Shown one piece after another: positions 3,713 through 35,126 of a stretch of 64,000 nucleotides of DNA (position 1 is its first letter; each line of letters starts with the position of its first letter). A program made the position numbers and the translations under genes. The stretch comes from a virus, in IMG/VR virus record IMGVR_UViG_3300032334_001433, positions 62,001 to 126,000 of that record; one strand, given 5' to 3'. Below the pieces are notes generated by a model that saw only the letters and a program-made list of their open reading frames with translations, was not told the DNA's origin and made no database searches.

Positions 3713-4372
3713 ATGATATTTAATCATGTTAAGGTGAAAGAGTTTGAAAAATTAGAGCAAGTTACCTTACCAAATGGTACAAGGCATTACGTAACACCGA
3801 AGGGCAAAAAATATCCTTCGGTGACTACGGTTCTTGGTGCTCAAAGCAAACAAGGTATTCTCGAGTGGCGTAAAAAAGTCGGCGAAGAAGAAGCAAACCG
3901 GATTTCTCGTGCAGCTACAAGTCGAGGAACTAAATTGCATACGCACGTTGAAAATTATTTGAACAATGTAAATGCAATAGATTCAATGTCAATGTTTCAA
4001 AGAGAATTATTTGACAGTATTCTTAATGATTTACATAGAATTGATAATATTCATTTGCAGGAAGAAAGATTATACTCGGATCATTTGCGAATGGCGGGTA
4101 CAGTTGACTGTATTGGTGAGTTTGATGGCAAATTAGCAGTCATTGACTTCAAAACTGCAGGTCGACAAAAGGAAAAACAGTGGATTCATAGCTATTTTAT
4201 GCAATGCGCGGCATATGCAATCATGTATGAGGAAAGAACCGGCATTCCAATCAACAAATTGGTGGTATTGATAGCAGTAGAAGGGGATTCTCCTCAAGTT
4301 TTCATTGAAAAACGTGATAACTGGGTCGCAGAGCTGCTAAAATGTCGGGATTCTTACGAAAATGGACAATAA
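3713..4372 (+). CDS. PD-(D/E)XK exonuclease, Cas4/MGME1-like
   Basis: 219 aa from the ATG at 3713; a TTG one codon earlier is less likely. The N-terminal YPSVTTVLG and the RGTKLHTHVE helix are followed by the nuclease core GTVDCIGEFDGKLAVIDFKTA with the D and D-x-K catalytic positions, then a Q-containing helix (MQCAAYAIMY). This layout is the one annotated as exonuclease in T4-like marine phages and related to the RecB/MGME1 superfamily. Probable roles are host DNA breakdown or recombination end processing. The gene ends just before a strong promoter. Confidence 0.85.
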   Translation: MIFNHVKVKEFEKLEQVTLPNGTRHYVTPKGKKYPSVTTVLGAQSKQGILEWRKKVGEEEANRISRAATSRGTKLHTHVENYLNNVNAIDSMSMFQRELFDSILNDLHRIDNIHLQEERLYSDHLRMAGTVDCIGEFDGKLAVIDFKTAGRQKEKQWIHSYFMQCAAYAIMYEERTGIPINKLVVLIAVEGDSPQVFIEKRDNWVAELLKCRDSYENGQ

Positions 4373-4376
4373 AAGC

Positions 4377-4405
4377 TTGACATTTTTCTAAATTTCTGTT
4401 ATAAT
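4377..4405 (+). promoter_or_regulatory. Consensus sigma70-type promoter
   Basis: TTGACA at 4377-4382 and TATAAT at 4400-4405 are both exact, with a 17-base spacer. It begins 4 bases after the exonuclease stop and lies 20 bases before the next ATG. It should be read by unmodified host RNA polymerase, i.e. an early gene promoter, and may also feed the tmRNA gene downstream. Confidence 0.9.
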
Positions 4406-4425
4406 ATATAAAATAGGAGAAAAAA

Positions 4426-4722
4426 ATGAAAAAACTACTTTTTCTAGCAATTTTTGCATTCACAGTTTTGGCAAATGCTCAATGGCACCACAGACATTGG
4501 GAGCCAAGGACAGTTATTGTTGAACGCAGTGATTGGGTAGCACCACTAATTATCGGTGGTATTGCCGGCGCAGTAATTGCAAACCAAAATCAACCACAAC
4601 CTGTGGTTGTTCAACAGCAACCAGTAATTGTACAACAACCTCAAACCGTTTGTACTGACTGGAAAGAAATTCAAACACCTGATGGCAAAATTTATCGCGA
4701 AAGAAATTGCTATCAACGATAA
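4426..4722 (+). CDS. Exported small protein with glycine-zipper-like segment
   Basis: 98 aa with a clear signal peptide: MKK, then a hydrophobic run, then ANA-Q as the likely cleavage site near residue 18. The mature part has a hydrophobic Gly/Ala segment (LIIGGIAGAVIA, about residues 41-52) like glycine-zipper envelope proteins. A repetitive QPVVVQQQPVIVQQP stretch follows, then two cysteines near the C-terminus. It is likely periplasmic or membrane-attached in the infected cell. AGGAGA lies 6 bases before the ATG. The function is unknown; early expression at the envelope could suggest a role in superinfection or lysis control, which is speculation. Confidence 0.8.
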   Translation: MKKLLFLAIFAFTVLANAQWHHRHWEPRTVIVERSDWVAPLIIGGIAGAVIANQNQPQPVVVQQQPVIVQQPQTVCTDWKEIQTPDGKIYRERNCYQR

Positions 4723-4736
4723 AATTATATACTTAT

Positions 4737-4826
4737 GATCTCGGACACGGCTAGGCTGTGCAATTAGACAAGATCCCGCTTCTTAGTGGGTACGGGAGGG
4801 CAGATCTCCCTAAGTATATTTTTATT
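4737..4826 (+). other. Structured leader or acceptor-piece pseudoknot region upstream of tmRNA
   Basis: This segment can form several stems: GATCT 4737-4741 with AGATC 4771-4775; CACGG 4746-4750 with CTGTG 4756-4760; CCCGC 4775-4779 with GTGGG 4786-4790; GGGAG 4794-4798 with CTCCC 4806-4810. AGATC 4771-4775 can instead pair with GATCT 4803-4807, which would exclude the first and last stems. It is either the 5' part of the tmRNA acceptor piece or a separate cis-regulatory leader. I looked for the glutamine-riboswitch core (GGAAGUAGG-like) and did not see it. Confidence 0.4.
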
Positions 4827-5058
4827 GCTGTATGAAGCAAAGAGAAAAGTGTTCTGGACGCGGGTTCGACTCCCGCCAGGTCCACCATAAAGAGTATTGT
4901 TCGCACCAAATAATAGCGAAAAAAATAGTGGCGTAGTTCCGGACTATGGATCATTAGCAGTATTCTTTATAATGGGCCTGCCCTGGTTTCGACAGAGCAA
5001 AGAGTAACAGAGTGGACAGCACATCAGCAACGATGTAAAAAGAAGAAAAACCGTAAAC

Positions 5059-5091
5059 GCAAACGACGAATTGTTCGCATTAGCAGCCTAA
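5059..5091 (+). other. tmRNA tag reading frame, ANDELFALAA-stop
   Basis: GCA AAC GAC GAA TTG TTC GCA TTA GCA GCC TAA encodes ANDELFALAA, preceded in the final tag by the alanine charged on the tmRNA. The resume codon GCA and the start GCAAACGACGAA are identical to the E. coli tag region. The C-terminal ALAA is the classic ClpXP/ClpAP degron. The phage tag should therefore direct products to host proteases. Confidence 0.92.
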
Positions 5092-5108
5092 ACACTGCTT
5101 AGGGTTTC

Positions 5109-5139
5109 GGTAGGTTTCCTCGTAACAGAATAACCTACC
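5109..5139 (+). repeat. Hairpin repeat copy 1 (end of tmRNA coding piece)
   Basis: GGTAGGTT 5109-5116 pairs perfectly with AACCTACC 5132-5139 around a 15-base loop. The same 8-bp stem followed by AATAT recurs at 5617-5648 with a different loop. No U-run follows, so it is not a typical intrinsic terminator. It may be the 3' structure or processing signal of the tmRNA coding piece. Confidence 0.75.
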
Positions 5140-5165
5140 AATATGTTTAACAACAGGAGAAAATT

Positions 5166-5603
5166 TTGATTAAAAAACTTGTACTTGTAGCAGCACTCAT
5201 CGGTGCAGCAACTGTAGCACAATCTACAGAAGTTGGTATCAATGGTGGTACTAACATTAGCTCAAGCGAAAATGTTTGGGGCGTAACTATCGGTCGTAAG
5301 ATCGGTTTTGCGGATGTAACCGGTGGCTTTACTCGCAATATTTCATCAGACACATATAGTGTCGGTACTTACAAAACTCTTACAAAAATTGGTCCAGTAT
5401 CAGTTGCAGTAAAAGGAAGTGGTGCATTTGTTGATAACAAAGTTGATCCAGATGGATATGCAGTAATTGTCGGCGCAGGTGCTTCAGTGCCTTTGGCAAA
5501 TAAGCTATCCGCTACTGTAGACTATTCCTATCAAGCAGGCCAAGATGTTATCAAAGCACAAAATGGTAGCAGAATTACTGCAGGTGTAAAACTTAGTTTC
5601 TAA
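5166..5603 (+). CDS. Small outer-membrane beta-barrel protein
   Basis: 145 aa starting at TTG 5166, seven bases after an AGGAG site; no in-frame ATG is placed better. A signal peptide (MIKKLVLVAALIGAATVAQS) precedes alternating amphipathic strands rich in G, S, T, V and aromatics, and the chain ends in KLSF with a terminal Phe, the outer-membrane barrel signature. The size suits a barrel of about eight strands. It is flanked by the two copies of the GGTAGGTT/AACCTACC hairpin. Phage outer-membrane proteins are unusual. Possible roles are receptor masking or envelope change; none can be shown here. Confidence 0.75.
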   Translation: MIKKLVLVAALIGAATVAQSTEVGINGGTNISSSENVWGVTIGRKIGFADVTGGFTRNISSDTYSVGTYKTLTKIGPVSVAVKGSGAFVDNKVDPDGYAVIVGAGASVPLANKLSATVDYSYQAGQDVIKAQNGSRITAGVKLSF

Positions 5604-5616
5604 GTTATAGAGGTTT

Positions 5617-5648
5617 GGTAGGTTGACCAGCATAGCAAATAACCTACC
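5617..5648 (+). repeat. Hairpin repeat copy 2 (after outer-membrane gene)
   Basis: GGTAGGTT 5617-5624 and AACCTACC 5641-5648 around a 16-base loop, followed by AATAT as in copy 1. It lies 14 bases after the stop of the outer-membrane protein gene and before the next ORF. The stem and the 3' AATAT are conserved between copies while the loops differ, which suggests selection on structure. Confidence 0.75.
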
Positions 5649-5671
5649 AATATTAATTACATATACGAATA

Positions 5672-6202
5672 ATGAAAACTTATACAAAACCATTTCTATT
5701 ATTTCTATCCACACTATTATTGATAACAGTATTTGTTCAAGTAACAACAGAAAAATTAAATAATTTAAGAGAATCAAAGTTTAAGGATAGTGATATAACC
5801 GTCGCCGTAAGGGAACAACAATTAGATTGCCTGGCACATAATATTTACTATGAAGCAGCAACAGAACCATTTGAGGGCAAAGTTGCAGTTGCTCAAGTAA
5901 CACTTAATAGAGCAGCATCTAGCAAATTTCCAAATGATATTTGCAAGGTAGTATATCAACGCAATATTATTTACGATAAAGTAATTTGTCAATTTAGTTG
6001 GTACTGCGAGACTTCTGCAAAAGCAAAACCAATTTATGCCGCAGCATATAAAGAATCATACGAAGTCGCAAAGAAAGTTCTTTTAGAAGGATTTAGATTA
6101 AAGAGTCTAAATGATGCCATGTATTATCATGCCTCATACGTGTCTCCTAATTGGAATAAACAACAAATTGCAAAAATTGGCAACCATATCTTTTACAAAT
6201 AA
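5672..6202 (+). CDS. SleB-type cell-wall hydrolase, membrane-anchored or exported
   Basis: 176 aa. An N-terminal hydrophobic segment (residues about 7-24) acts as signal anchor or signal peptide. It is followed by a Hydrolase_2/SleB domain: CLAHNIYYEA with the predicted catalytic Glu at 61, then VAVAQVTLNRA, FPNDICKVVYQ and QFSWYC. Four cysteines suggest a periplasmic fold with disulfides. It would cleave peptidoglycan from the periplasmic side. Together with the GH19 enzyme at 3071 the phage has two wall-degrading enzymes in this region, one with its own export signal. Confidence 0.82.
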   Translation: MKTYTKPFLLFLSTLLLITVFVQVTTEKLNNLRESKFKDSDITVAVREQQLDCLAHNIYYEAATEPFEGKVAVAQVTLNRAASSKFPNDICKVVYQRNIIYDKVICQFSWYCETSAKAKPIYAAAYKESYEVAKKVLLEGFRLKSLNDAMYYHASYVSPNWNKQQIAKIGNHIFYK

Positions 6203-6205
6203 ATT

Positions 6206-6514
6206 ATGATTAAATTACCTACACTACAAAATGTTATTGAATACTGCAAGACTACACTAACAGTTGCAACTGCAGAAACTATTGCTTGGATTGGTATTGT
6301 ACTAATTCATGCAGCAACAGTACCGACAATGATTTCATTAATGTCTGGTCTATCAGATAAGATGCCCCCTGTAGATTTTGTCCTATTTGTTTGGGCTGGA
6401 TTGTCTCTTCTATTTGCCCGAGCAGTAATTCTCAAAGATATGTTGACTATTGTTACTATCGGAGCAGGATTTATTGTACATTCTTGTTTTCTTGCCCTAA
6501 TACTATTTAAATAA
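6206..6514 (+). CDS. Small membrane protein with three predicted helices
   Basis: 102 aa with three hydrophobic segments at about residues 22-45, 56-74 and 77-100. The start lies 3 bases after the previous stop and the gene is followed 1 base later by heme oxygenase, so it is in the same transcript. I do not recognise the family. A conserved-looking MPPVDFVLFVWAG stretch and a single His in each of two helices are visible. A link to heme handling is suggested only by position. A holin-like role is an alternative given the wall hydrolase upstream. Confidence 0.65.
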   Translation: MIKLPTLQNVIEYCKTTLTVATAETIAWIGIVLIHAATVPTMISLMSGLSDKMPPVDFVLFVWAGLSLLFARAVILKDMLTIVTIGAGFIVHSCFLALILFK

Positions 6515-6515
6515 A

Positions 6516-7040
6516 ATGAGTCTAAAAGATCTAACCCATGCAAAACATAAAGAAGCAGAAACGCAACCGTTTATTAAAGCTATCTTTAAAAAATCAGTAA
6601 CAAGAGAAGAATACGCAGATTACTTATTTCAACTTGGTTTTATATACCATGTATTGGAAGAAGATGTCGGAAACAAATTTGGCTTATTTAACGATATGCC
6701 GGAATTGAAACGATCATCGTATATTAGAGATGACATTAATGAGCTTACCACTCCTACAACTTTATATTCGCCTAAAAAATCTACAGTAGATTATGTAAAT
6801 TATTTACTTGGTATAGACAATGCACAAGATGCAATGGCCCATGTATATGTTCGTCATATGGGAGATTTATTTGGTGGCCAGGCTCTTGCAAAACTTGTGC
6901 CTGGTTCTGGAAAAATGTACAAGTTTGAGAATAAAGAAGAATTAATTAGTAAAGTTAGATCTAAACTAGTTATTGAAATGGCAGACGAAGCAAACATTGC
7001 ATTTGACCACAATATTAATATGGTTAAGGAATATAATTAA
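6516..7040 (+). CDS. ho1: Heme oxygenase
   Basis: 174 aa, somewhat shorter than plant and cyanobacterial enzymes. Opens heme to biliverdin IX-alpha, CO and Fe2+ using reduced ferredoxin. The proximal heme-ligand region THAKHKEAETQPF (His about 11) is present, as is the distal-helix signature YVRHMGDLFGGQALAK, matching the family R-[YH]-x-G-D-x-[FS]-G-G-Q. Its stop overlaps the start of the bilin reductase (TAATG), so the two products are likely made together. No ferredoxin gene is in the window, so host ferredoxin or flavodoxin would supply electrons. Confidence 0.93.
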   Translation: MSLKDLTHAKHKEAETQPFIKAIFKKSVTREEYADYLFQLGFIYHVLEEDVGNKFGLFNDMPELKRSSYIRDDINELTTPTTLYSPKKSTVDYVNYLLGIDNAQDAMAHVYVRHMGDLFGGQALAKLVPGSGKMYKFENKEELISKVRSKLVIEMADEANIAFDHNINMVKEYN

Positions 7041-10168: not shown

Positions 10169-11650
10169 TTATCTATCCGTATATGCTGCTCTTTTATCTT
10201 GCCATCTATTAAATGAACTATAACTAGAATGAGGGGTAGGAGAAGATCCTATAATTGTTTGTTCTGTATTGTTAACAACTTTATTAGATACGATAGGTGC
10301 AATTGTGTTTGTTTGTGTTGTTTGTGGACTTAGTTTTAAATCTGTATTTGTATCTGTTACGTTTTGTAGAACATTTTTTAACGCCGGTGATTCTTTTGGT
10401 GACACCATTTCTTTAGCTTGATCTGGCAATTTTAATGTCTTATTGCTTGGTGTTATTGTTTCAGATTTTTTTATTATATCTTTAAGTTTCTCTTCTCCGC
10501 CCCAATTTTTTATTTCTTCTTGGGTTCCCTTTTGTAGAATATATCTGGCTTCATCTGGATTAGGATCTTGTATAGCTTCAACTTTTGATTTATTTTCTTT
10601 TGGTGCTGCTTCAGTATTAGGTTTTCTATCTTCGTTGTCTCTGCTTTGTCTAATTATTGCTGCGGCCATACCAGTGTCATCACCTGCTCCTGAATTTGAC
10701 AACATATCAAGTTGTTCATTACTTGCATTTGATATTGCGTTGGTTGCGCCTGCAGCTAATGCAAGTCCACCTACTCCTACCGCAGCAGGTACTGCTACGC
10801 TTGAAAGTACACTTGCGGTTGCAGCCGCCTTGCCTGCTTTGCCGCCAGGAATTTCTGGTATATTAATACCTCCAGATAGAGAAGATAAAACATCGGATAA
10901 TTTATCTGCAATTGCTTCTGCTAATTTTTCTCTATCTTCGCTTTTTGCACTTTCATTATTTGGTTCAACTCCCTTTGATTTATCTGAAGGAGACACTATA
11001 TTTTCAGAAATAATTTTTTTAATGTTTATTGCTTCCTCAAGTATTTGTTTTTGTGTCTTATCATCTTTTAAATCTATAAGTACTTCAACCATGTCAGATA
11101 ACACTTTGTTTGTAGAGTCCGAGGAAACATGAGGAGGTGCAACTGCAGTTAATGGTGCAGAAATTTCTTTTGCTTGAATTTCCGGCATTGGCGTAGCAAT
11201 TTCTCTAGGCAGTTCTTTTGGAATATCTTGAACTGATTCTTCTCTAGGAACTATGTTGCCTATATCTCCTAATTTATTTTCCACAACTGGATTTTCATTT
11301 GGCGCCTGCAACATTGGTTCAATTTGTTGAGGTTCTTCTGTTTCCGAAGTTACTTTACTAATATTTTCAGGTAAAGAAGATTTTCCAAAACCAAGATATT
11401 GTGGTAGATCTTTTGTAAATGGTGAGGCAAATCCCTTACCAAAATCTTTTATATCTCCAATCAAAGTTCTTGAAGGTTTTTCAGAATCCTCTTGTTCTTT
11501 TTTAGATTTACCTGCACGTTTTTCTAATGTTTTAGTAAGCGAATCCAATGAGCTTTTTAGATCATTTATATCTTTATGCGCCATCCCATCCTTGCCGAAT
11601 AATTGAATTAATTCGGCTAAGGGATTTTCGGAATTGGATGTTTTATCCAT
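10169..11650 (-). CDS. Low-complexity structural-type protein of unknown function
   Basis: 493 aa. N-terminal coiled-coil-like helix (residues about 10-50), then long polar stretches rich in E, K, P, S and T. Around residues 265-305 lies a hydrophobic Ala/Gly segment (PGGKAGKAAATASVLSSV and onward) that could be membrane-active. The rest is disordered. I do not recognise the family. It is translationally coupled to the holin gene (stop and start overlap as TAATG on the minus strand) and ends the minus-strand operon. It could be a virion-internal or lysis-accessory protein. A 229-residue antisense frame lies over it but looks like a shadow. Confidence 0.7.
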   Translation of the reverse strand: MDKTSNSENPLAELIQLFGKDGMAHKDINDLKSSLDSLTKTLEKRAGKSKKEQEDSEKPSRTLIGDIKDFGKGFASPFTKDLPQYLGFGKSSLPENISKVTSETEEPQQIEPMLQAPNENPVVENKLGDIGNIVPREESVQDIPKELPREIATPMPEIQAKEISAPLTAVAPPHVSSDSTNKVLSDMVEVLIDLKDDKTQKQILEEAINIKKIISENIVSPSDKSKGVEPNNESAKSEDREKLAEAIADKLSDVLSSLSGGINIPEIPGGKAGKAAATASVLSSVAVPAAVGVGGLALAAGATNAISNASNEQLDMLSNSGAGDDTGMAAAIIRQSRDNEDRKPNTEAAPKENKSKVEAIQDPNPDEARYILQKGTQEEIKNWGGEEKLKDIIKKSETITPSNKTLKLPDQAKEMVSPKESPALKNVLQNVTDTNTDLKLSPQTTQTNTIAPIVSNKVVNNTEQTIIGSSPTPHSSYSSFNRWQDKRAAYTDR

Positions 11651-12237
11651 TATAGGGTAGGTCTTCTAACCACCGGTTTTATTGCTGAACTTTGTTGTGG
11701 TTGGGAGGTATCTCCAAATCCACCCGAGGATCCAAACGTAGACGCTCCAGTGCTTGGACTGCTACCAAAGCCGCCTGCGGTTGGTGTATCAAAACCGCCG
11801 GGGGAACCGAATCCTCCTGGCGAAGGCGCGCCAAATGCTGCTGGGCTGCTTGTTGGTGTACTGAATCCGCCATTAGTTAAACCTCCCTGTGTAGGTGTAG
11901 ATGGCGGTGGAACATACGTTGTCCCTGAACCGAGACCACCATTATTTGCGCCGTTTAATTTCTCTTGAGTTCTACCATGTGCAGCAATACCAAGTACAGC
12001 TCCCATCGCTACGTGAAATAATCCTGCGCCTTGTAGGGTTAATGGTTGCCATTGTACGTTAACTGATCCTTTACTTAATGATTGTAGTAAACTCCAAAAA
12101 ATAGGAGCAACTACAAAATCAAAAGTACATACAGCCATGTACATCCAACCCATCATTGGACGCCATTTACTGTTCATCCAATCTTCTTTTTTCTTTTCAC
12201 TGGCACTCATTTTATATTCTTTTTCTTCTTCGGCCAT
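11650..12237 (-). CDS. Holin, GTA-type three-helix family, with Gly/Pro-rich tail
   Basis: 195 aa. After a charged start (MAEEEKEYKM) comes WRPMMGWMYMAVCTFDFVVAPIFW (helix 1), then WQPLTLQGAGLFHVAMGAVLGIAAHG with further hydrophobic segments. The WRP...W block and the HxAMGAVLGIAAHGR block match the 3TM holin family first defined in gene transfer agents. The last 90 residues are a disordered repeat of GGFGS/PTPTGG. Forms inner-membrane lesions to time lysis and would release the GH19 endolysin. Long disordered tails on holins are unusual. Confidence 0.75.
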   Translation of the reverse strand: MAEEEKEYKMSASEKKKEDWMNSKWRPMMGWMYMAVCTFDFVVAPIFWSLLQSLSKGSVNVQWQPLTLQGAGLFHVAMGAVLGIAAHGRTQEKLNGANNGGLGSGTTYVPPPSTPTQGGLTNGGFSTPTSSPAAFGAPSPGGFGSPGGFDTPTAGGFGSSPSTGASTFGSSGGFGDTSQPQQSSAIKPVVRRPTL

Positions 12238-12239
12238 TT

Positions 12240-12434
12240 TTAACCCTTTGCTGCTTTTTTAGCTTTTATTTTTTCATTTTCATCATTTATATAATTTACT
12301 AATAACGATACGTATATTTCTCTTTCCCATGGCAACATATTTTCTATTTCTGTTAATGAGTATTTATGGTGCTGCATTAACGAAAAATTTAACTGAAAAT
12401 AGTTTATAAGACTTTCATGAGAAAGAGTTAGACG
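12240..12434 (-). CDS. gp51: gp51-like baseplate hub assembly domain, probably read by -1 frameshift from gp26
   Basis: 64 codons in the -1 frame after gp26, from the slip site to TAA at 12240. Protein: RLTLSHESLINYFQLNFSL, then MQHHKYSLTEIENMLPWER and a charged terminal helix. The segment before the only ATG (12377) looks genuinely protein-like and continues smoothly from the gp26 end ...KFF. This supports entry by frameshift rather than, or as well as, independent initiation of a 45-aa product. The LPWEREIYVSLL motif is what I associate with gp51-type hub-assembly proteins of marine T4-like phages. The assignment is from position and motif only. Confidence 0.6.
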   Translation of the reverse strand, partial: RLTLSHESLINYFQLNFSLMQHHKYSLTEIENMLPWEREIYVSLLVNYINDENEKIKAKKAAKG

Positions 12435-13120
12435 AAAAAATTTTGGAGGCCCTCCAAATCTACAACATTCAAATGATTACATTGCGGACATTCTGCCTCA
12501 ATATGATGTACAAGTTTAGGAATGTTTCTAAAAAATTCTTCCAACAAATCAAATTGTTTCTTTGTAAATGAACTAACAAAATTATTTAATTCCTCCGGAG
12601 AATATGATTTTTTATCATAATAGTCCTCAGGAGTAAATACTGCGTCTATACAATTTGTAATTAATTCTACAATTTTTGCACTGTTTACATTATTATGTAT
12701 ATCTAACATTTCTTCAAATTTTGGATAACGTAAAACTACGCCAACAGTATCATTCAACATTATTTTATTGTCTACAGAATCTTTAGTAACTTTAAGATCC
12801 ATTATATTAATTGAATGATCTATTTTATTACCGCAAACACAATTCACAATTATATCTGCACTTTCACTTATAGATTTTGCTCTAATATTTAAGAACAAGT
12901 ATTCCACATCAAAGTGAGCAAGTTTATCAATATCTAATTTTTTAAACGTACAATTATCCACTAACTCTGTAACTATTCTAGAAATTTCTCCGACATCTGC
13001 TTCTACATTAGTTAAAAGTATTTTATATTCTTTAACTAAGAATGGTCTATATTTAACAGTTTTCCCCGTTGAAGGTAATGTCAATTCGTATAATGGTGTC
13101 TCTAATATTGGTAAAGCCAT
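12428..13120 (-). CDS. gp26: Baseplate hub subunit gp26
   Basis: 230 aa T4 baseplate-protein family (gp26). Starts MALPILETPLYELTLPSTGK with strong FRPFLVKEYK-type motif (YRPFLVKEYKILL), followed by helices. Two cysteine pairs, CVCG (C94, C96) and CPQC (C211, C214), look like a split zinc ribbon. It ends DLEGLQNFFV. Its stop codon lies 4 bases beyond an AAAATTTTTTC slippery run, and a -1 shift would extend it by 64 residues. The gene sits between a tail-tube-fold protein and the gp51-like frame, consistent with hub assembly. Confidence 0.85.
   Translation of the reverse strand: MALPILETPLYELTLPSTGKTVKYRPFLVKEYKILLTNVEADVGEISRIVTELVDNCTFKKLDIDKLAHFDVEYLFLNIRAKSISESADIIVNCVCGNKIDHSINIMDLKVTKDSVDNKIMLNDTVGVVLRYPKFEEMLDIHNNVNSAKIVELITNCIDAVFTPEDYYDKKSYSPEELNNFVSSFTKKQFDLLEEFFRNIPKLVHHIEAECPQCNHLNVVDLEGLQNFFV
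12434..12440 (-). other. Candidate -1 ribosomal frameshift site T_TTT_TTC
   Basis: Read on the minus strand, the last gp26 codons are CAA AAT TTT TTC GTC TAA. T_TTT_TTC fits X_XXY_YYZ: both tRNAs can re-pair after slipping back one base. The overlapping A_AAT_TTT is a second possible slip site. Slippage moves the ribosome into the 64-codon gp51-like frame. The stop two codons later would pause ribosomes near the site. Confidence 0.65.
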
Positions 13121-13136
13121 AATATATCCTTTATAA

Positions 13137-13763
13137 TTAAATTATTGTTCCAATGGCCTGCATAGGATCTGTTATTGTAGGTGTAGTTAATGTATCGTAA
13201 TTATAACTACTAGAAGTAGGCACCCATTTTCTATAACCAAAAGTTACAATTAATTTATGCGTTTGGTTTAGCGCGGCCATATTTAAATCCATCATATTAA
13301 TTGCTTTTGGAAAAGCATCTATTAGTTTTATAGTGTATGTTTCATTATCTTTATCATCTAATTGTTTTATAATAATGTCTGCAGTATTTTCTGGTCTATT
13401 ATTTTTAAATTGATACTGCGCATTAAATGAATTTGGATTTATGATACTAAATATCCATGCGTCAAAAAATGCTTTAGTTGCAAATTTAGTGTCAACATAA
13501 AAAGTCATACTAATTGCTTCGCCGCCATATTCTAAAGATACCGGTTTCTGATAAGCAGGTCCGTAAATTCGTTGACCTTTTGTTGTGACCGCAATACCAG
13601 GAAGATTTGATATTTCGCAAAATAAAGTAACCAATCTCCCGTCATCAGTAAATTTTTGCAATGCAGGTGGCGGATTTATTTGTACTTCAAATCTATTAAC
13701 CTTTGCAAGGCCTTTGGCTTTAACTGCACTAATAAAATTTGACAAGTTAAACTGAGATTTCAT
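13137..13763 (-). CDS. Tail-tube-fold baseplate protein, gp54/gp19-like
   Basis: 208 aa. N-terminal FISAVKAKGLAKVNRFEVQI, then LFCEISNLPG, RIYGPAYQKP, SMTFYVDTKF and AFFDAWI, and C-terminal INMMDLNMAALNQTHKLIVTF. These are the strands and helix of the gp19 tube fold shared by tube, initiator and cap proteins. Near gp26 and the divergent gp48, it is a good candidate for tube initiator gp54, though shorter than T4 gp54. A second such protein lies at 48990-49574, so which one acts as gp54 is unresolved. Confidence 0.7.
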   Translation of the reverse strand: MKSQFNLSNFISAVKAKGLAKVNRFEVQINPPPALQKFTDDGRLVTLFCEISNLPGIAVTTKGQRIYGPAYQKPVSLEYGGEAISMTFYVDTKFATKAFFDAWIFSIINPNSFNAQYQFKNNRPENTADIIIKQLDDKDNETYTIKLIDAFPKAINMMDLNMAALNQTHKLIVTFGYRKWVPTSSSYNYDTLTTPTITDPMQAIGTII

Positions 13764-31679: not shown

Positions 31680-34600
31680 ATGGCAACAACGTATACCGTA
31701 AGTAATGTAAATGTAGGTACCTATCCTAATGATGGACAGGGCGAATCTTTACGAAGTGCTTTTACACGGGTTAATAAAAATTTCTCAAATTTGTATCAAT
31801 TAGCATTGCTTGGAGGTAGCAATACCGTAGGCTCCGCAAATATTGCAGTACAAGATGAGGGAACTTATTTAACAAATTCGGTATCCATATTAAATTTTGT
31901 TGGATCGGGTGTTACCGCAAACGCAAATGGTAGCGTTATTACAATTACAATTAATGGCGGGAATGGCGGTGGCGGAGCAAATGTAATTTATTATAGTAAT
32001 GTATACAACAATACAACTATAGCTAGCAATGTAGATTTGGGTGCGTTAAATAGTGCTCTTGCAAATTTAAGCTATGTTAGTTTGGGTGCATTAAATAATG
32101 CCCTTGCAAATTTAAGCTATGTTAGTTTAGGATATTTAAATAATGCTCTTGCAAATTTACAACCAACAAATTTAAGTGGTTTGGGAAATGCACTTGCAAA
32201 TTTAACATATACTGATCTATCAAGATTAGGAAATGCTTTAGCAAATGTTCAACCAGTAAATTTAGATTCTTTAAATAATGCTTTAGCGCGAGTTAATGTC
32301 AATACACTTGGCAACTTTACAAACGTATTTAATACCATTGCAGCAAATGCAGCAAATGTTTCTAAAGTAGGCATTGTATCTGGATTGCCTGCATCCGGAG
32401 CAAATGGTCAATCAGTTTATAATTCTGCAGATGGCGGTTTATATATTTGGCAAGGTAACGCATGGGTAAAACCTGCGGCGGCATTTACACCAACTGCGGC
32501 TTCAATTGCAACAGTTGAAATATGGACCACTACTCCAAAACCAACAACAAACTTAATTAACGGTAGAACAATTCTTTATACTGCAGATAGTAATCTGTAC
32601 ATATATGTAGGCGGTGCTTGGAATAGTTATAATAGTTATATTCAAGGCTCCGGTACTCCTACAGTTGGAGCAAACACAATTAATGCTGCGGCACTTCAGG
32701 CCGGAATTATTACTGCAGATAAAATTGCATCTGGAGCAATTATAGCCGGCAAGATTGCAGCCGGTGCAATTAATGCCTCAGAAATTGCGGCAGGAACAAT
32801 TACTTCTGGAATGATTGCAACAAACTCAATCATAGCAGGCAAGATTGCAGCCGGAGTAATAACTGCTTCAGAAATTGCTACGGGAACAATTACAGCAACT
32901 CAAATTGCTGCAAATACTATTACCGCAGATCAGATTGCTGCACAGGCAGTAACGGCATCAGAAATCGCGGCAAATGCTGTGTATGCTGCTGCTATACAAG
33001 CGTATGCAATTACCGCAGATAAAATTGCAGCAAATGCAGTTACTGCAGTATCAGTTGCGGCAAATTCAATCTATGGTAACTCCATTATGGCGTATACCTT
33101 AACCGGCGATAGGATTCGAGCAAATACAATTACAGGTATGAGTATTGTAGGCAATACTATTTACGGCAATGCTATTATGGCATACACATTGACAGGTGAC
33201 AGAATTATGGCAAATTCTGTTTCAGGTATGGTATTGATAGGCAATACAATATTTGGTAATGCTATTGTTGGCAATTCTATTACCGGTGATCAAATTAGAG
33301 CAAATTCTGTTTCAGGTATGGTATTGATAGGCAATACAATATTTGGTAATGCTATTGTTGGCAATTCTATTACTGGCGATCAAATTAGAGCAAATTCTGT
33401 TTCCGGCATGGTAATTACTGCAAACACGTTATTTGCGAATGCAATTCTAACTAATAGTATCACAGCTGCGCAAATTAAAGCAAATACTATTACGGGCAAT
33501 GAAATTTTAGTTAATTCTATAACTGCTGATAAAATTGATACCAGAGGATTAACAATAAAGGCAGCTGACGGAACAGTATTATTTGGTTCAGGACAACTTT
33601 CAAGTTCAGTAACATTTTTTGATGGAACAAGTAATGTATCAGTTGTTTCTGCATTGTCTCAAAATCCCGTTGTATTCATTGGTACATATGCAACAGCACC
33701 AAGCAGCGGAATAAAAGAAAATAACGTATATAAAAATTCAACAGATGGCAATACTTATGTTTATAAAAGCGGAACATGGACGACATTTGTTACTGGCGGC
33801 ACAGGATCACAAGGACCGGCAGGCCCACAAGGACCAGCTGGCGCAGCAGGAGCAAGTGGTTCACCTGGAGAAAGAGGATATAAAGAATTCATATATGGAG
33901 TCGCCGGATTATCTTCTTGGAATGATACCTATGCAGAAACAGCAATAACAAATGTAGGATTGACAAAAGTAATACTTGATAGAGTTACTTTATATAATTC
34001 AAGTTCTCCAGGATCATTCTCACAATCAAGATTTTGGTCAGGGTCTGCATGGTCTCCGGTATCAGCATATATTAATGGTGGATTATTAGTTAGCGGAACT
34101 ATTGGTGCAGATGCAATTGCAACAAATGCAGTAACTGCAAATAAGATTTTAGCAGGAGCAATTACTGCAGATAAAATTAATGTTGGATCGTTATCTGCAT
34201 TATCTGCAAATATTGGTGTTATTACTACAGGTAAAATACAAGGGGACGTAGTATTCAGTGGTAATATTTACGGAGCCAACGGTACATTTAGTGGCTCATT
34301 AACCGCCGCCGCAATTAATGCGGTAGATACTGTCAATATTACAAATAGTGCGGTTACTTCAGTATTATCTGTAAAACTTAATACTCCTTTTGTATTAAAT
34401 GGTTATGCTGCAGGCGGAGGCTCAATTAATCCTGGAGGAGCTATATTTAAAATAGATGTACTTACTACAGGATGGGTTAAGATTCCAAATCAATCATCGG
34501 TTACTATGTTCTTTACTATGAATAGTTATGGTCAAGATACATGGCAATATTTGTCTCCTTCAATTACTCCAGAAGTACGCAGAGAAACACAATATTATAG

Positions 34601-35126
34601 AATAAGAGCAACTTATGGCGGAAACGGGGCATCTCCTTCTGCTGCCGTAATTGCTAATCCATGGTCGTCATATACTACGCCTGTAGATCAACCATTTAGA
34701 ATAGTAGATAGATTTACTCCTCCAAGTGATGCAATAAAAGTAAATCAAACAACATTAGGGGATGGCGCATCTGGTTCATTGACTGCTCCTGGATGGTATC
34801 AATTTGTTGTTGATATGATTGTATTGCCAGGCCCAGGATCTCTAGATGAGCAATCATTTGTATATGCACACGGAGGAGACATATCAATTGTAGGTACAAC
34901 TGATGCAGTTACTGCAATTTCAAATAACCAATGGACAGATAGATATGGATTATCCGGAGGCGGTCCGTCAACAACATATAATTATAATAATCCAAATGAT
35001 GTTTGGGGGTACGGAGTATTTTTAGTTTCTAATAGACCAATTTATAATGCTTGGTATACAGGTTTCCCTTATTTGTACCATAGATTTAGTTCAGGATCAT
35101 TAACAGTTATTATAGCAAAAAAATAA
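31680..35126 (+). CDS. Tail fibre protein with tandem repeats and collagen-like segment
   Basis: 1148 aa. The N-terminal attachment block VGTYPNDGQGESLRSAFTRVNKNFSNLY is shared by marine T4-like fibres. Residues about 121-210 hold six 15-residue repeats of the ALANL type. Residues about 340-620 hold many short repeats around I-x-A-x-x-I (ADKIAAGAI, TGDQIRANS), including two near-identical 30-residue units. A collagen-like Gly-x-y stretch (GSQGPAGPQGPAG) lies near residues 708-733. The C-terminal 250 residues form a non-repetitive globular tip, presumably receptor-binding. Forms a long trimeric fibre. Confidence 0.88.
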   Translation: MATTYTVSNVNVGTYPNDGQGESLRSAFTRVNKNFSNLYQLALLGGSNTVGSANIAVQDEGTYLTNSVSILNFVGSGVTANANGSVITITINGGNGGGGANVIYYSNVYNNTTIASNVDLGALNSALANLSYVSLGALNNALANLSYVSLGYLNNALANLQPTNLSGLGNALANLTYTDLSRLGNALANVQPVNLDSLNNALARVNVNTLGNFTNVFNTIAANAANVSKVGIVSGLPASGANGQSVYNSADGGLYIWQGNAWVKPAAAFTPTAASIATVEIWTTTPKPTTNLINGRTILYTADSNLYIYVGGAWNSYNSYIQGSGTPTVGANTINAAALQAGIITADKIASGAIIAGKIAAGAINASEIAAGTITSGMIATNSIIAGKIAAGVITASEIATGTITATQIAANTITADQIAAQAVTASEIAANAVYAAAIQAYAITADKIAANAVTAVSVAANSIYGNSIMAYTLTGDRIRANTITGMSIVGNTIYGNAIMAYTLTGDRIMANSVSGMVLIGNTIFGNAIVGNSITGDQIRANSVSGMVLIGNTIFGNAIVGNSITGDQIRANSVSGMVITANTLFANAILTNSITAAQIKANTITGNEILVNSITADKIDTRGLTIKAADGTVLFGSGQLSSSVTFFDGTSNVSVVSALSQNPVVFIGTYATAPSSGIKENNVYKNSTDGNTYVYKSGTWTTFVTGGTGSQGPAGPQGPAGAAGASGSPGERGYKEFIYGVAGLSSWNDTYAETAITNVGLTKVILDRVTLYNSSSPGSFSQSRFWSGSAWSPVSAYINGGLLVSGTIGADAIATNAVTANKILAGAITADKINVGSLSALSANIGVITTGKIQGDVVFSGNIYGANGTFSGSLTAAAINAVDTVNITNSAVTSVLSVKLNTPFVLNGYAAGGGSINPGGAIFKIDVLTTGWVKIPNQSSVTMFFTMNSYGQDTWQYLSPSITPEVRRETQYYRIRATYGGNGASPSAAVIANPWSSYTTPVDQPFRIVDRFTPPSDAIKVNQTTLGDGASGSLTAPGWYQFVVDMIVLPGPGSLDEQSFVYAHGGDISIVGTTDAVTAISNNQWTDRYGLSGGGPSTTYNYNNPNDVWGYGVFLVSNRPIYNAWYTGFPYLYHRFSSGSLTVIIAKK
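32040..32309 (+). repeat. Six 45-bp repeats coding for 15-residue units
   Basis: Units share the pattern G/S-x-L-N/G-x-A-L-A-N-L/V followed by a variable five-residue turn (SYVSL, QPTNL, TYTDL, QPVNL). The first two units are almost identical in DNA; later ones diverge. The period suits a trimeric beta or coiled shaft. Confidence 0.8.
33211..33390 (+). repeat. 90-bp tandem duplication in tail fibre shaft
   Basis: Copies 33211-33300 and 33301-33390 differ at only two visible positions (ACC GGT versus ACT GGC), much closer than neighbouring repeat units, so this is a recent in-frame duplication adding 30 residues. A further partial unit follows. Confidence 0.9.

Follow-up and report, generated by a model that had tools for sequence, protein, structure and literature searches.

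Organization of the gp26/gp51 locus

The 64-kb window analyzed here, which is part of a virus record of 202,665 bases (202.7 kb), carries a homologue of T4 gp26 on its minus strand (Table 1). In profile searches, the gp26 product matches PF12322 (T4_baseplate, 1e-57) and phrog_150 (7.5e-62), and its AlphaFold model (pLDDT 85.8) recovers many T4-like baseplate hub proteins from BFVD, with E-values down to 2e-19. The gene ends with the codons GAG GGC CTC CAA AAT TTT TTC GTC TAA. The -1 frame is open from position 12443, where it continues upstream within gp26, to a stop at 12240, and thus extends 62 codons beyond the gp26 stop. Translated, this extension is matched by phrog_634 (T4 gp51, annotated 'baseplate hub assembly catalyst'; 1.6e-29) and also by the C-terminal part of the phrog_150 profile (1.3e-7). 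The original prediction had proposed a T_TTT_TTC slip into a gp51-like stretch of 64 codons. A re-reading of the sequence bears out the 3′ end of gp26, the slip, the coordinates and the 64 codons, and the phrog_634 match agrees with the proposed identity. The prediction erred in taking the ATG at 12377 for the only one in the -1 frame, as a further ATG is present at 12338.

Table 1. Positions of genes and candidate signals at the gp26/gp51 locus of the window
Feature	Position	Strand	Remarks
Tail tube protein gene	13137-13763	-	Directly upstream of gp26; phrog_45 1.4e-31, phrog_3629 1.8e-21
gp26 homologue, predicted short tail-assembly (baseplate-hub) chaperone	12428-13120	-	230 aa; 0 frame
Shine-Dalgarno (SD)-like GAGGG, candidate frameshift stimulator	12450-12454	-	Inside gp26, 9 nt before T_TTT_TTC
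Overlapping canonical heptamer A_AAT_TTT	12437-12443	-	Present in the window; without counterpart in several relatives
Slippery heptamer T_TTT_TTC	12434-12440	-	In-frame Phe-Phe just before the gp26 stop
-1 extension, gp51 C-terminal domain	12240-12434	-	64 codons plus stop; CGT reuses the final base of TTC
gp26 0-frame stop TAA	12428-12430	-	One codon (GTC) past the heptamer
Candidate downstream hairpin TAACTCTTTCTCATGAAAGTCTTA (core CTTTC/TCAT/GAAAG)	12407-12430	-	Starts 3 nt past the heptamer
First ATG of the -1 frame	12375-12377	-	Type of internal start that public annotations give stand-alone gp51

The tail tube gene adjoins gp26 upstream, as expected of a G/GT locus, which has the major tail tube gene on one side and the tape measure gene on the other. 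No tape measure was recognized by homology downstream of gp26/gp51, where a holin-like gene and a 493-aa ORF follow. The holin-like gene (11650-12237, minus strand; GTA_holin_3TM, 8.7e-8) lies right after the gp51 extension and has a long, Gly/Pro-rich C-terminal half. The 493-aa ORF (10169-11650, minus strand) is without a family match in profile searches and occupies the position at which relatives have a tape-measure or peptidase-like gene. Its assignment as a tape measure was rejected, as BLAST found no similarity to the 492-aa gene at the same position in phage C48C1. The gene that follows gp51 in cyanophage S-PM2 (3886-6714 of its locus sequence) gives an ADP-ribosyltransferase-like PF01129 match (8e-6) and a sub-threshold match to phage tail lysozyme.

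The slip site is conserved among relatives

Two slippery heptamers overlap at the end of gp26, and a slip at either one would yield the identical product ..Q-N-F-F-R-L-T-L.. (..LQNFFRLTLSHESLINYFQLNFSLMQHHKYSLTEIENMLPWEREIY..). Conservation was found only for T_TTT_TTC. Relatives without A_AAT_TTT read CAG AAT TTT TTC or TCT TTT TTC, which suggests that A_AAT_TTT is probably an auxiliary slip site.

Within the window, we scanned all 73 ORFs that reach 100 aa for an X_XXY_YYZ heptamer no more than 12 codons from the stop, combined with a -1 overhang of at least 60 codons. Both features are found together in gp26 alone (1 of 73), and in-frame T_TTT_TT[CT] occurs at two sites in total across these ORFs. 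The next case, and the sole other ORF to pair an in-frame heptamer close to the stop with a -1 overhang, is the ORF at 31680-35126 (plus strand), where the slip codon of an A_AAA_AAA heptamer sits 6 nt ahead of the stop and the overhang is just 26 codons.

Relatives were compared in two sets, both picked without regard to the slip site. The close set holds 80 IMG/VR loci of 91-51% identity and gives 65 distinct loci with the window included. The diverse set holds 82 loci, mostly 36-43% identical to the query and including two KVP40-type phages; 80 diverse loci were chosen by an N-terminal motif only, and two contigs are shared with the close set. In all 80 close loci, T_TTT_TTC lies at the same codon and the -1 frame encodes the gp51 domain. 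The heptamer is invariant in the distinct loci (65 of 65), although the Arg codon of the -1 frame also constrains its last C, such that this base does not count as independent evidence. Other Phe-Phe pairs in gp26 read T_TTT_TTC in 2 of 65 cases. Among the diverse loci, T_TTT_TT[C/T/A] is located shortly before the gp26 stop in 82 of 82. Across relatives, that stop starts 6-30 nt past the first slip codon.

Named phages present a similar picture. The heptamer is found in the Kyanoviridae S-PM2, P-HM1, Mosig, Melnitz, S-SRM01, S-CRM01 and C48C1, in the non-Tevenvirinae Straboviridae phi-pp2 (KVP40-type), LPCS28, Ci1 and AS-zj, and in phages pf16, Ps15 and ACP17. The conservation proposed as a check on the prediction therefore extends to all close and diverse environmental relatives and to most named phages. 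Loss of the slip was a second point at issue. The more distant phages Vibrio D509, SUMAE and Salmonella SenM-2 have no T6, yet all three keep the -1 extension and a T_TTC tetramer. Their slips are imperfect (A_CTT_TTC or A_ATT_TTC), and good re-pairing at these sequences would be possible for the A-site tRNA only.

The -1 frame evolves as protein from the slip onward

The original prediction held that the -1 frame resembles protein from its start, ahead of any ATG, and substitution patterns agree with this claim. In pairwise counts over 64 distinct loci, -1 codons 3-18, which precede the first ATG, have a pN/pS of 0.20. When the nucleotides of codons 3-31 are read in all three frames, pN/pS is 0.22 in the -1 frame, and the remaining frames give 0.98 and 2.2. 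Furthermore, 15 distinct close loci have no ATG, GTG or TTG ahead of -1 codon 32, and pN/pS for the -1 codons before codon 32 in these startless loci is 0.24. An independent start therefore cannot account for the -1 frame, and one upstream of the LTLSHES segment, which the prediction had set against frameshifting, is impossible in these 15 relatives. These measures of selection point to translation of the -1 frame from the slip onward.

One alternative is that gp51 stands alone, starting from the ATG at 12377 (or 12338) and being translationally coupled to gp26. The window and many relatives do have an ATG, and public records use such internal ATGs. The ATG at 12377 is not conserved, but an ATG at codon 32 is retained in all close loci. 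However, this alternative leaves the protein selection on the pre-ATG codons unexplained, and the 15 loci that are startless before codon 32 would begin translation about half way into the domain. In addition, the T4 homologue carries the pre-ATG segment within a continuous protein, and the first of the three helices in the model of the extension (residues 12-26; pLDDT 81) begins upstream of the ATG. We consider a stand-alone gp51 very improbable on these grounds. A fold search with the extension domain gave no significant match.

Candidate stimulatory elements and a proposed mechanism

Sequences on both sides of the heptamer might stimulate frameshifting. Upstream, GAGG occupies positions -14 to -11 relative to the heptamer, leaving a spacing of 9-10 nt. 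The Glu codon at this site is GAG in 50 of 65 loci, versus 166 of 1403 elsewhere in the same genes. The mean anti-SD pairing among the close loci is -7.1 kcal/mol at the site versus -0.5 kcal/mol in the rest of gp26, and the 82 diverse loci exhibit a sharp pairing peak at -18 to -12. Ps15, D509 and SenM-2 show weak pairing or none, and pairing is modest or weak in several others, including Straboviridae. The phages without T6 (D509, SUMAE and SenM-2) have little or no SD.

Downstream, the mean folding z-score relative to shuffled sequences peaks right after the heptamer in both the 65 close and the 82 diverse loci. With 60-nt folding windows, the diverse set reaches a mean z of -1.91 at +12 versus -0.79 to +0.33 at the other positions sampled, and with 40-nt folding windows the close set has a mean z of -1.61 at +7. 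Cyanophage S-PM2 has a long hairpin (about 14 bp) downstream of its heptamer. For the locus studied here, the 105 nt downstream give a folding z of -1.97, and its own hairpin is weak (-3.6 kcal/mol). The sole outcome of RNAalifold was a weak pairing between the SD region and a downstream block, with no covariation and no compensatory base pair. Given this small hairpin and the absence of covariation, a downstream hairpin as stimulator is suggestive only. A search of Rfam returned a single sub-threshold chance match on the other strand.

These candidate elements are relevant to a second alternative, in which RNA polymerase rather than the ribosome slips on the T6 run and adds an extra U. Such slippage would yield the same fused protein from a homopolymer run that is invariant, and T runs are longer in some relatives. 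However, a run of six Ts is short for transcriptional slippage in bacteria, most loci keep T6 followed by C rather than a lengthened run, and a constantly spaced SD and a hairpin after the heptamer are signals that act on ribosomes. Polymerase slippage is thus very improbable, and we infer that the slippage is ribosomal. The third alternative, that decay or a sequencing error left the downstream frame as a remnant of a gp26-gp51 fusion gene, which is intact in T4-type phages, is refuted by conservation and has a negligible probability, as the same frame relation and heptamer recur in about 160 environmental loci under purifying selection.

Programmed -1 frameshifting is supported by all of the sequence checks put forward with the original prediction, and gp26 and the downstream -1 ORF very probably constitute one tail-assembly chaperone gene that is expressed by a predicted -1 frameshift. 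According to the proposed mechanism, most ribosomes would end at the TAA (12430-12428) to produce the short chaperone gp26 of 230 aa. A minority, paused by pairing of the SD-like GAGG with 16S rRNA and by the downstream hairpin, would slip -1 on T_TTT_TTC and read on into the gp51 domain. The resulting long chaperone of about 293 aa would consist of the gp26 body followed by ..FFRLTLSHES.., with the junction ..LQNFFRLTLSHES... By analogy with lambda G/GT, coating of the tape measure or hub may fall to the short form and recruitment of tail tube or hub subunits to the long form. In T4 and its near relatives, the same pair would be made from genes 26 (short) and 51 (long fusion).

The two-gene arrangement of T4

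The T4 gp51 protein (249 aa) combines a PF12322 match over residues 1-201 (3.9e-52) with a phrog_634 C-terminus, and it matches phrog_150 over its full length. Judging from this domain composition, T4 gp51 is a gp26 paralogue fused in frame to a phrog_634 domain. Its build of a gp26-like body plus an extension makes T4 gp26 the short form and gp51 the long form. Short and long proteins are encoded by two divergent genes in T4, Acj133, Aes508, a Jiaodavirus, Merlin and PS2. When aligned with the predicted frameshift products, all six of these T4-type long proteins have the junction at the same Phe, and they hold the pre-ATG segment in one continuous frame. The two-gene arrangement is absent from the whole 202,665-base record, which has exactly one PF12322 match and one phrog_634 match, and thus no second long gene is present in its sequence.

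A tree built from 39 bodies places the T4 short proteins in one group and the T4 long proteins in another, both apart from the single-gene group (99/92). The long branches in this tree make the history uncertain. Direct proof that the T4 pair arose within the Straboviridae was not obtained, as monophyly of the Straboviridae was not rejected (AU p 0.365). For a reading in which the composite signal of SD, T_TTT_TTC and hairpin is ancestral in T4-like phages, and in which the Tevenvirinae escaped it via duplication and in-frame fusion to create gene 51, we see the chances as evenly balanced. The ancestral signal would apply to cyanophage-type and many other T4-like phages, and the escape to the Tevenvirinae and close relatives. 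If true, this reading would explain T4 as the known exception to the G/GT rule.

Relation to known frameshifting systems and public annotations

The predicted arrangement resembles lambda G/G-T in having a short chaperone and a low-level -1 extension that is without its own start, adjoining the tail tube gene. The heptamer in lambda is G_GGA_AAG, whereas T_TTT_TTC is used here, together with SD-like and hairpin elements and in contractile T4-like phages, and we found no sequence relation between the two systems. In a Foldseek comparison, the match of the gp26 model to the solved HK97 chaperone (gp13; 2ob9) was not significant (E 1.8, probability 0.11), and therefore membership in the lambda chaperone fold is not shown. 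A sequence search of solved structures gave nothing convincing. The layout of the candidate signals is like that of E. coli dnaX, in which an SD precedes the heptamer A_AAA_AAG by about 10 nt and a strong hairpin follows; the differences are the T_TTT_TTC heptamer and the weak hairpin in the window. With T4 gp26/gp51, the locus shares the same two protein families and the same fusion point, but T4 has two divergent genes where the present locus has one gene and a predicted slip.

Frameshifting in phage tail-chaperone genes is a general phenomenon that has long been known, as the original prediction recognized. Vladimirov et al. 2022 (Virology 566:9-15) reportedly identified the tail-chaperone genes of T4-like phages. 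The passage of the PRFect paper that cites this study describes 'some T4-like phages' with one short and one long fused gene (PMC10885494), and the corresponding passage of a paper on phage Adele refers to it on poly-T slippery sequences in the chaperone genes of T4-like phages (PMC12846349). Given these citing passages, the gp26/gp51 frameshift has probably been at least partly described already, and the prediction, which knew of no precedent for the gp26/gp51 pair in T4-like phages, requires amendment on this point. In the literature searched, in which Vladimirov et al. 2022 is represented by the papers citing it, we found no account of the SD-like element, the localized downstream structure or the breadth of conservation. 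Phage Adele (Vandenendeviridae/Andersonviridae) is itself similar in having a poly-T slip at the end of its short chaperone and a -1 extension, and differs in belonging to other phage families. Its authors report a conserved GTTTTT slip and a -1 extension of over 200 bp that is routinely mis-annotated (PMC12846349). A 2016 review described the tail chaperone frameshift as widely conserved 'except T4' (PMC5009743).

The gp26 and gp51 proteins have long been listed as T4 hub-assembly chaperones. The predicted frameshift, together with the fusion in T4, would make them a short and a long version of a single chaperone, like the lambda pair. In public records, the gp51 extension is often cut short or left out, and the signal described here shows that many public annotations of cyanophages have a truncated gp51 or lack it. 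In S-CAM4, P-SSM7 and three further records, the extension is either unannotated or begun at an internal ATG.
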